From Alteromonas sp. LMIT006 (GTDB taxonomy: Bacteria; Pseudomonadota; Gammaproteobacteria; Enterobacterales; Alteromonadaceae), in NCBI RefSeq assembly GCF_024300645.1, contig NZ_CP101291.1, forward strand, positions 1,364,001 through 1,428,000: a DNA stretch of 64,000 nucleotides, written 5' to 3'. The notes beneath the pieces are model-generated. The model made no database searches, had not been told where the DNA came from, and saw only the letters and a list, made by a program, of their open reading frames with translations. Below, piece after piece: positions 52,965 to 53,892 of this stretch; the stretch's first letter is position 1; every line of letters begins with the position of its first letter. The position numbers and the translations under genes are program-made.

Positions 52965-53041
52965 GCGTGCGTAGCTCAGCTGGATAGAGTACCTGGCTAC
53001 GAACCAGGCGGTCGGAGGTTCGAATCCTTCCGCACGCGCCA
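52965..53041 (+). tRNA. tRNA-Arg (anticodon ACG)
   Basis: 77 nt including encoded CCA. Acceptor GCGTGCG / CGCACGC, anticodon arm CCTGG-CTACGAA-CCAGG, T-arm GGAGG-TTCGAAT-CCTTC. Anticodon ACG (probably modified to ICG by TadA). Identical to the copy at 53535-53611. Confidence 0.97.
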
Positions 53042-53065
53042 TCTATTTCCTCAGATGTAAAATGA
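53035..53065 (+). repeat. 31-bp direct repeat, copy A (tRNA-Arg 3' end plus flank)
   Basis: Starts inside the tRNA-Arg acceptor stem (CGCGCCA) and runs 24 bases beyond it. A perfect second copy lies at 53195-53225, 160 bp downstream. The two copies bracket repeat element E1. Confidence 0.95.
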
Positions 53066-53194
53066 AGGAGGCGAACCGACTGGAGGTTCGACTAAAACGC
53101 CTGGAGCGTTTTAGCTCTGCACCGAATTATGAGGTGCACCGCGCAGCGGCGAGGGCAGGAGCCCGAGGTAATCCTTTCGCTTTACCCGCTAGGG
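53066..53194 (+). repeat. Structured tRNA-linked repeat element E1
   Basis: 129 bases between two copies of the tRNA 3' end. It can fold into consecutive hairpins: CGAACC-gactgga-GGTTCG; CTAAAACGC-ctgga-GCGTTTTAG; TGCACC-gaattatga-GGTGCA; and GGGC-agga-GCCC. Three loops carry GGA. Homologous modules occur in E2 and E3. No coding potential is credible. Located directly behind tRNA-Arg with no terminator in between, so probably in the primary tRNA transcript. Confidence 0.85.
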
Positions 53195-53225
53195 CGCGCC
53201 ATCTATTTCCTCAGATGTAAAATGA
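53195..53225 (+). repeat. 31-bp direct repeat, copy B
   Basis: Perfect copy of 53035-53065, carrying a fake tRNA 3' end (CGCGCCA) without the rest of the tRNA. It marks the far boundary of element E1. Confidence 0.95.
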
Positions 53226-53232
53226 TGGATAT

Positions 53233-53279
53233 TAAAGGATAGAATTAGAAATTCCCCGGAGAGGTGGGTGAGTGGCTGA
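53233..53279 (+). repeat. 47-bp direct repeat, copy A, with truncated tRNA-Ser 5' fragment
   Basis: Perfect duplicate of 53373-53419 (offset 140 bp). Its last 22 bases (53258-53279) are the acceptor 5' strand and half of the D-arm of tRNA-Ser, after which the tRNA sequence stops and element E2 begins. The fragment cannot form a tRNA. Confidence 0.93.
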
Positions 53280-53372
53280 CTAAATCGTCAGGAACGATTT
53301 AGCACAACGCAAAGCGTTGCCTGAAGGGCGAGTATCAGGATGATACGAGTGAAACCAGCACCAAAACCTTTG
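53280..53372 (+). repeat. Structured tRNA-linked repeat element E2
   Basis: 93 bases between the truncated and the complete 5' ends of tRNA-Ser. Hairpins: CTAAATCG-tcaggaa-CGATTTAG; AACGC-aaa-GCGTT; GTATC-aggat-GATAC. It corresponds module for module to E1 and E3 but with different stem bases that still pair, while AGGA in the loops is kept. Confidence 0.82.
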
Positions 53373-53419
53373 TAAAGGATAGAATTAGAAATTCCCCGGA
53401 GAGGTGGGTGAGTGGCTGA
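53373..53419 (+). repeat. 47-bp direct repeat, copy B (5' end of intact tRNA-Ser)
   Basis: The second copy of the repeat at 53233-53279; its last 22 bases are the true start of tRNA-Ser. Confidence 0.93.
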
Positions 53420-53490
53420 AACCAGTCCCCTGCTAAGGGACCATACAGTTTGTAGCTGTATCGAGGGTTCGAATCCCTCCCTCTCCGCCA
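53398..53490 (+). tRNA. tRNA-Ser (anticodon GCT)
   Basis: 93 nt including encoded CCA. Acceptor GGAGAGG / CCTCTCC, anticodon loop CTGCTAA (GCU), long class II variable arm (TACAGTTTGTAGCTGTA), T-arm with GGTTCGAAT. Confidence 0.97.
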
Positions 53491-53534
53491 TTCTCCAATT
53501 GAGATTGGCATACAATCAGATTTTAAAGTTTTGC

Positions 53535-53611
53535 GCGTGCGTAGCTCAGCTGGATAGAGTACCTGGCTACGAACCAGGCGGTCGGAGGTTCGAATCCTTC
53601 CGCACGCGCCA
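53535..53611 (+). tRNA. tRNA-Arg (anticodon ACG), second copy
   Basis: Base-for-base identical to 52965-53041, including encoded CCA. Followed five bases later by its own terminator. Confidence 0.97.
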
Positions 53612-53736
53612 CTTACAAAAATGCCACCGTTAGGTGGCTTTTTTGTGGGCGCAAGGAAGATGAGAACCGATAAGAGGTTCGACAAATCGTCTGGAGCGAT
53701 TTGGACTGCCGCAGGCATCGCGCAGCGGCGAGGGCA
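53608..53736 (+). repeat. 129-bp direct repeat, copy A
   Basis: Starts precisely at the discriminator base of tRNA-Arg (GCCA) and contains the tRNA terminator plus most of element E3. A perfect copy lies 156 bp downstream at 53764-53892. Confidence 0.95.
53616..53644 (+). terminator. Terminator of the tRNA cluster (first copy)
   Basis: Stem GCCACC-gtta-GGTGGC (53623-53638) with A-tract before and six T after. Duplicated at 53772-53800 as part of the 129-bp repeat. Confidence 0.92.
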
Positions 53737-53763
53737 GGAGCCCGAGGTCAATCCTGAAGCAAA
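53645..53763 (+). repeat. Structured tRNA-linked repeat element E3
   Basis: 119 bases. Hairpins: GAACC-gataaga-GGTTC; CAAATCG-tctggag-CGATTTG; TGCC-gca-GGCA; GGGC-agga-GCCC. The final part (from GCGCAGCGGCGAG to the GAGG after the last stem) is nearly identical to that of E1, while the second and third stems differ with compensatory changes. Confidence 0.85.
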
Positions 53764-53892
53764 GCCACTTACAAAAATGCCACCGTTAGGTGGCTTTTTT
53801 GTGGGCGCAAGGAAGATGAGAACCGATAAGAGGTTCGACAAATCGTCTGGAGCGATTTGGACTGCCGCAGGCATCGCGCAGCGGCGAGGGCA
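53764..53892 (+). repeat. 129-bp direct repeat, copy B, with truncated element E4
   Basis: Perfect copy of 53608-53736: a GCCA tRNA end, a second terminator (53772-53800) and an E3 copy cut off in front of the last hairpin. It ends five bases before the elbB stop codon. Confidence 0.95.
53772..53800 (+). terminator. Duplicated tRNA-cluster terminator (second copy)
   Basis: Identical hairpin and T-tract to 53616-53644. On minus the A-tract side can also end elbB transcription. Confidence 0.88.

Follow-up and report, generated by a model that had tools for sequence, protein, structure and literature searches.

Transfer RNA-linked repeats (TLRs) have been known since 1978, and their function was still given as unknown by Stenum et al. 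(2021, PMC8144298), excerpts of which underlie all that we take from that paper; these authors count 22 members in Escherichia coli K-12 and give as the hallmark of the family a stretch of 18–19 bp identical to the 3′ end of the host RNA. The same excerpts describe RrA, RrB and RrF of E. coli as processed RNA fragments released from a precursor and report that RrB binds CsrA in vitro at ~100 nM, that RrB with three GGAs changed (both loop ones included) gave no shift in the range tested, and that the 19 tRNA-linked E. coli TLRs scored <0.01 in a CsrB/C-type predictor and are predicted non-binders of CsrA (PMC8144298). Here we analyze a window of 64,000 nucleotides (nt) from Alteromonas sp. LMIT006 (positions 1364001–1428000 of a contig of its 2.53 Mb genome, G000; a window coordinate is the genome coordinate minus 1364000), in which four elements, E1–E4, are copies of one modular multi-hairpin element. 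Such a set of related hairpin elements among tRNA-Arg, tRNA-Ser and tRNA-Arg genes had been proposed in an earlier, sequence-only reading of this DNA: the stems that it quoted are present, the tRNA genes are confirmed, and all four elements match a single covariance model (53035–53897 region). The family, which that reading did not recognize, is a known one: E1–E4 are TLRs, members of the superfamily that includes E. coli RtT/rttR (Rfam RF00391) and RrA/B/F. What is new is the presence of paired GGA hairpins on tRNA-linked copies, and our searches of an open-licence library showed no earlier report of GGA-bearing tRNA-linked TLRs.

The paired GGAs emerge from a loop census of 200 distinct copies drawn from the family of the window genome (f1, taken as Alteromonadaceae) and nine other families of the order. 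Among the resolved hairpins, counting the loop and its closing pair as the tip, GGA occupies the tip of hairpin 2 (H2) in 169/195 and of hairpin 5 (H5) in 155/199 cases, as against 26/191 for H3 and 5/198 for H4. The tRNA-linked copies found here are RrB-like, with GGA mostly on H2 and H5 and rarely on H3 or H4. The motif CAGGA(U/A/C)G, which an excerpted account gives as the repeat of CsrB (PMC7652899), was found in the H5 region of 95/200 copies, in H2 of 1/200 and in the H3–H4 stretch of 0/200. GGA at both tips prevails in 9 of the 10 families sampled, some of them by small samples; the exception is family f18, which is mostly GGA-less (13 copies with neither, 5 with both) and is probably Enterobacteriaceae, judging from its having the strongest CsrB match of any family. 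Of the 13 distinct copies listed for the window genome itself, 11 have both GGAs, the two exceptions being a 5S-linked copy at 729228 and E4.

Moreover, a copy tends to have either both GGAs or neither. Jointly scored, 146 of 194 resolved copies have both, 20 neither and 28 only one, these 28 mixed cases including parsing errors that were left uncorrected by hand. The same tendency is seen in a subset made up of the loci fetched via R2, a covariance model in which the loops of H2 and H5 were masked to N (its seeds being mostly of the GGA type even so), together with all copies of the genomes G000, G031 and G113: 103 of its 142 copies have both, 19 neither and 20 one, and when this R2-based subset is counted by genome majority the figures are 35, 6 and 7 of 48. 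Copies in the family genomes that were found with the independent E. coli model RtT (33 of 72 listed RtT hits, namely those with a locus of their own, from 31/36 genomes) gave 24 with both, 6 with neither and 3 mixed in an automatic count; by eye the three mixed cases (L153, L346 and L355) have GGA in both hairpins, which would make the tally 27/6/0. Since the copies counted in these tallies are mutually related, the Fisher values obtained (5e-11 and 2e-4) overstate independence and are no true probabilities.

The assignment to the TLR superfamily is supported from both directions. A loose-threshold cmscan of the elements returned RtT, AaHKsRNA22, rsmX and RsmZ, the last two being CsrA-sponge families, all below threshold and among other weak, mostly chance matches. 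RF00391 gave no match on the window copies, nor in the window genome at the thresholds used (E <= 0.01 and E <= 0.001), so that a library look-up alone would miss the family. In relatives, the RtT model matched in 16 of 98 at E <= 0.01, with 7 exceeding the cut-off, and in 36 of 246 genomes of the same family (52 genera) at E <= 0.001, with 11 exceeding the cut-off, at loci of the same kind; these matches include loci found independently by DNA search at tRNA-Asp in G024 and at tRNA-Lys in G014. Conversely, R2 searched against E. coli recovered RrB behind the rrnB 5S gene (53.1 bits, E 3.6e-13), with the same hairpin architecture, and all four repeats of the tyrT locus (4/4, E 5e-8 to 1e-6), whose layout matches that of our elements: GATGAGAA..GGTTCGA, hairpins, GTAATCC, then the tRNA 3′ end. 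We accordingly rejected the notion of a family without known relatives, which the sub-threshold RtT matches on the elements, and then those above cut-off in relatives, contradict. A transposon-like element with a target duplication was likewise set aside: the flanking repeats are made of the host RNA end and the adjoining flank, which comes near the TLR hallmark. The hallmark itself is inexact in the window, where the host 3′-end copy is degenerate in E1 and E3, consists of tRNA-Ser sequence in E2 and is lost in E4; elsewhere in the genome the Lys-, Glu-, Arg-TCT-, Pro-GGG- and 5S-linked groups each include at least one member with an exact copy, as read by eye.

The elements have a conserved multi-hairpin RNA architecture. 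In an alignment of 33 curated copies, pairing is kept in 91.9% of the pair cells, two-sided changes occur in 19/22 pairs, and the covariation score is 0.580, as against 0.040–0.088 in slid controls; this bears out the compensatory stem changes noticed in the sequence-only reading. Nearly every stem position has changed between copies, with 45 further pair types over the 22 pairs. The second alignment, A4, comprises 111 copies found by the model (107 of them distinct) and, being fitted to that model, leans to structure; it gave 97.9% pairing, two-sided changes in 16/17 pairs and a score of 0.604 versus at most 0.095 when slid. The outer helix, formed by the strand before hairpin 1 with the copied tRNA tail, is supported too and is already part of the Rfam RtT structure. 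Single-sequence folds are less striking than the covariation: E1 reaches –47.5 kcal/mol (z –3.26 against shuffles), E2 and E3 have z-scores of –1.85 and –2.26, and E2 alone is unremarkable. The sequence-only reading allowed for selection on either RNA or single-stranded DNA structure. On the tRNA-sense strand the stems of two model-found alignments hold 81 G-U against 27 A-C oppositions, a count somewhat biased by the fact that the model tolerates G-U, and this excess favors selection on the transcribed RNA over selection at the level of DNA. As for the further claim that no coding frame, transposase or REP/attC signature fits, the coding part holds, in that the long open reading frame (ORF) lying over the elements (53335–53874, minus strand, 179 amino acids) has no Pfam match, and a coding element was rejected on this ground. 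As to the rest, no transposase was recognized in any of the three window ORFs tested that adjoin or overlap the elements (wider surroundings not scanned), and the G-U excess argues for RNA; a REP/RAYT or integron attC element would be expected to show equal wobble on both strands and a linked Y1 transposase or integrase.

The family is widespread beyond the window. A DNA search of the window genome gave 7 matches at three places, each with tRNA genes, and a covariance model built from the 33 curated copies of the window genome and its relatives (R1) found 17 copies (weakest E 3.5e-6); further members of the family exist in this genome and in related ones. These 17 are associated with tRNA-Lys (two), tRNA-Glu (three), the Arg/Ser/Arg cluster of the window (four), tRNA-Arg-TCT, tRNA-Pro-GGG, tRNA-Ser-GGA and 5S rRNA (three, one by eye), one more lying behind an EF-Tu gene and one behind a 3′ end like that of transfer-messenger RNA (tmRNA). 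At E <= 0.001, R1 detects at least one copy in 183/246 family genomes and 47/52 genera, many more than the 36 genomes reached by RF00391 at the same threshold, with the proviso that the R1 seeds come largely from the Alteromonadaceae themselves; in an order-wide sample R2 found copies in 97/295 genomes and 38/100 genera. Linkage was examined for 213 hits (a few double-counted via overlapping loci). A tRNA or 5S gene precedes 114 of them by no more than 450 nt (median 82 nt), and another TLR precedes 21; a further 64 have less than 450 nt of upstream DNA and are undecidable, and 14 have no tRNA, 5S or TLR upstream. Hence most of the judgeable copies, though not all, are linked to stable RNAs, of which 17 kinds are represented, Glu, Lys and Ser being the commonest.

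We consider it somewhat probable, at roughly 60%, that these elements are RNA modules released from tRNA and rRNA transcripts that titrate CsrA, a binding that we infer by analogy with RrB. The TLR module, grafted onto stable-RNA transcripts, would be cut from the precursor during processing; hairpins 2 and 5 would engage the two halves of a CsrA dimer, each through its GGA loop; and the released RNA would titrate CsrA in proportion to stable-RNA transcription, that is, to growth rate. It would thus work like E. coli RrB, with the module spread over many tRNA operons besides rRNA operons. csrA was found in 57/60 genomes searched, the window genome included. CsrB (RF00018) had no match on the window and none in the window genome at E <= 0.01; because the Aln1 small RNAs (sRNAs) of Alteromonas may escape RF00018, we do not use this absence in support of a sponge. 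Several observations weigh against such a role. According to the excerpts of Stenum et al., the effects of deleting and of overexpressing RrA/B/F in E. coli were modest and, oddly, pointed the same way (PMC8144298). GGA is dispensable for TLR status, as 6 of the 33 RtT-found family copies lack both, and TLRs without GGA occur in several genomes. The link to stable RNAs is not universal: among 12 orphan loci scanned with cmscan, a tmRNA precedes one copy and no further stable RNA was detected at short distance upstream, and orphan copies occur both with the two GGAs (e.g., L210, L241) and without GGA (L236, L245). Terminator-like hairpins precede some copies, E3 among them, so that E3 and E4 would need read-through, by which the excerpts have E. 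coli RrB produced as well, past a first terminator (PMC8144298). Since E4 is truncated and the tails of E1 and E3 are decayed, some copies may be relics. Finally, Alteromonas already has the CsrB-like sRNAs Aln1a–c, according to excerpts of PMC5864184, and TLRs would therefore be an added, growth-coupled layer.

We also weighed three other explanations. TLRs could be RNA processing modules, in which the outer helix, together with the copy of the tRNA 3′ end, restores a terminus recognized by RNase E and the 3′ exonucleases, protecting or buffering tRNA maturation, with the GGA loops serving something else, such as folding or another protein. The copy of the host RNA 3′ end is the hallmark of the family, and recognition by RNase E is suggested in the excerpts of Stenum et al. 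(PMC8144298); the 5′ strand of the outer helix matches the tail of its own tRNA more closely than it does other tails (mean score 5.67 versus 4.43; a score of at least 6 in 16/43 versus 78/860), a comparison confined to the 43 distinct copies of the 213 hits that had both landmarks; and GGA-less TLRs have an otherwise unchanged architecture. We nonetheless hold this unlikely, as it leaves unexplained why GGA sits on H2 and H5 and rarely on H3 or H4, and why both GGAs tend to be gained and lost jointly. Besides, R1 found no copy in 63/246 family genomes (strict filters may miss some), where tRNA maturation therefore seems not to need TLRs.

It is more doubtful still that TLRs represent DNA repeats of a selfish or recombinogenic nature, copied from one stable-RNA gene to another, their hairpins aiding template switching or single-stranded DNA folding, with no useful RNA role. 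The turnover at the interval between tRNA-Arg and tRNA-Ser would suit such repeats: in the window this interval is 356 nt long and holds E1 and E2, a strain with 97% identical PssA (L011) has only 50 nt and no R1 match, and another with 99% PssA identity (L010) has only the counterpart of E2, without E1, its contig ending just behind tRNA-Ser. The insertions also carry long flank duplications, and some cores lie away from known stable RNAs. Against this, G-U exceeds A-C by 81 to 27 on one strand, and the loop letters of two hairpins are conserved, while a DNA hairpin would need the stem only; the three window ORFs tested, the wider surroundings not having been scanned, include no recognized transposase, and RrB of E. 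coli is an expressed, processed RNA in the excerpts cited (PMC8144298). The GGA loops might, lastly, be an ancestral feature under no present selection, kept since the copies are young duplicates, and copies within a genome can indeed be identical (two Lys-linked ones and two of the 5S-linked ones). This seems to us very improbable, the stems having diverged nearly everywhere (45 further pair types over 22 pairs) and GGA tips yet prevailing in 9 of 10 families, some by small samples. The titration of CsrA by released TLR modules would give the decades-old question of what TLRs do a specific, testable answer through the paired GGA hairpins of the tRNA-linked copies and, if true, would provide an additional, direct connection from the transcription of stable RNAs to the Csr network.

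At the window locus all features of the array lie on the plus strand. The tRNA-Arg(acg) gene at 52965–53041 is the host stable RNA of E1 (53062–53201), which lies between it and tRNA-Ser. E1 has hairpin 1 (GAACC/GGTTC) at 53073–53089, and its core (53090–53174) holds hairpin 2 (53092–53114, loop CTGGA), hairpin 3 (TGCACC/GGTGCA, 53118–53138), hairpin 4 (CCGC/GCGG, 53139–53149) and hairpin 5 (53153–53164, loop AGGA); its tail is a degenerate copy of the tRNA-Arg 3′ end, running from AATCC (53170–53174) to a CGCGCCA ending at 53201, and is followed by a copy of the downstream flank. Next, a copy of the 5′ part of tRNA-Ser (53258–53279; 53233–53279 is identical to 53373–53419) is interrupted by the E2 core (hairpins 2–5, 53278–53355; hairpin 2 loop CAGGA, hairpin 5 tip CAGGATG), ahead of the intact tRNA-Ser(gct) at 53398–53490; its position inside this 5′-part copy means that a TLR core can also land outside the 3′ position. 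Such hairpin arrays, interrupting a copy of a tRNA 5′ half ahead of the intact tRNA, were seen at 53258–53397 of the window for tRNA-Ser and at L105 (~1730–1885, minus strand, G024) for tRNA-Asp, and are a 5′ variant of the TLR arrangement. The last tRNA-Arg(acg) (53535–53611) is the host of E3 and E4, which lie 3′ of it behind a terminator-like hairpin followed by a T-run (53623–53638). E3 (53651–53763) has a decayed tRNA 3′ copy and a core at 53681–53754 with the loops CTGGA in hairpin 2 and AGGA in hairpin 5; a tandem duplication of 134 nt, 99% identical (53608–53741 versus 53764–53897), repeats the terminator-like hairpin at 53779–53794 and contains E4 as the truncated member, whose core match to the covariance model (53837–53909) has lost hairpin 5. 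A template-switch origin via the GGTTCGA and AATCC microhomologies would fit these arrangements.

The ORFs adjoining the elements match CDP-alcohol phosphatidyltransferase and DJ-1/PfpI in Pfam; the former gene, by inference pssA, lies upstream of the tRNA cluster, and its protein shares 99% and 97% identity with its counterparts in two Glaciecola metagenome-assembled genomes, on which basis f1 is taken as Alteromonadaceae. Of 80 pssA loci compared for synteny, 1 has a match, but many of the contigs end just behind pssA, so that this is no count of absence. Several copies elsewhere stand in unusual surroundings. The EF-Tu-linked core of the window genome (G000:C1:265710–265812; L182 1501–1603, L325; EF-Tu by Pfam) directly adjoins the 3′ end of that gene, whose stop codon falls inside hairpin 2; hairpin 3 is replaced by a terminator-like hairpin, GGA is present at both tips, and the genes upstream include tRNA-Thr and tRNA-Gly. 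One TLR lies ~80 nt behind the tmRNA gene in G416 (L243 1066–1580), and the window-genome copy at G000:C1:136146–136219 (L188) lies behind a sequence that by eye resembles a tmRNA 3′ end, cmscan having found no tmRNA gene there. The repeats at L236 and L245, in two genomes of family f18, are GGA-less and TLR-core-like, with no stable RNA found upstream. TLRs also occur within ~1 kb of csrA in G014:C1 (TLR 2192677, csrA 2193576) and G025:C6 (TLR 173812, csrA 174513), and a 408-residue ORF adjoining a Glu-linked TLR (L009 146–1372, minus strand) looks by eye like a TnpB of the IS200/IS605 type.

Set against the known members of the superfamily, the Alteromonadaceae copies share with RtT of tyrT (RF00391) the linkage to tRNA, the tandem arrangement, the closing helix, the GGTTCGA and GTAATCC landmarks and the 3′ tRNA copy. 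The structure used here differs from the RF00391 consensus, which pairs H1 with the H4 stretch and has no H5, and, unlike most Alteromonadaceae copies, the E. coli tyrT copies have by eye no GGA in the H2 or H5 loops. AaHKsRNA22 (RF02902), an Aggregatibacter sRNA, matches a TLR of the Alteromonadaceae type (L108) below threshold (35.2 versus 39.8 bits) and exceeds its cut-off in 2/98 relatives, both of another family (f8); RF02902 may be a Pasteurellaceae branch of the TLR family. RrA, RrB and RrF have the same hairpin order as the Alteromonadaceae TLRs, lie behind a first terminator (RrB) and end in the host RNA 3′ end, and the RrB loops, CGGGA in H2 and AGGAC in H5, both carry GGA as in most Alteromonadaceae copies. 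They differ in being found behind 5S only, whereas the copies found here lie mostly behind tRNAs, also behind 5S and, in one case apiece, behind an EF-Tu gene and a tmRNA, and in their H5 tips, which in the copies found here are often of the CAGGAUG type; CsrA binding, shown for RrB, is presumed for these copies. Tentatively, and with less confidence than in the titration of CsrA as such, we suggest that the Alteromonadaceae and neighboring families may possess a distributed CsrA sponge, a bivalent GGA module on tRNA and 5S (in places tmRNA and EF-Tu) transcripts by which free CsrA would be set by growth rate, and that the E. coli state, with three rRNA-linked sponge copies and GGA-less tRNA-linked ones, might be a reduced remnant of it. 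CsrB/CsrC and Aln1a–c, going by the excerpted descriptions, resemble TLRs in presenting GGA in hairpin loops, as CAGGA(U/A/C)G in CsrB (PMC7652899) and A(N)GGA in Aln1 (PMC5864184); they are, however, free-standing RNAs, CsrB with ~18 sites, whereas a TLR has two such hairpins and sits inside stable-RNA transcripts.

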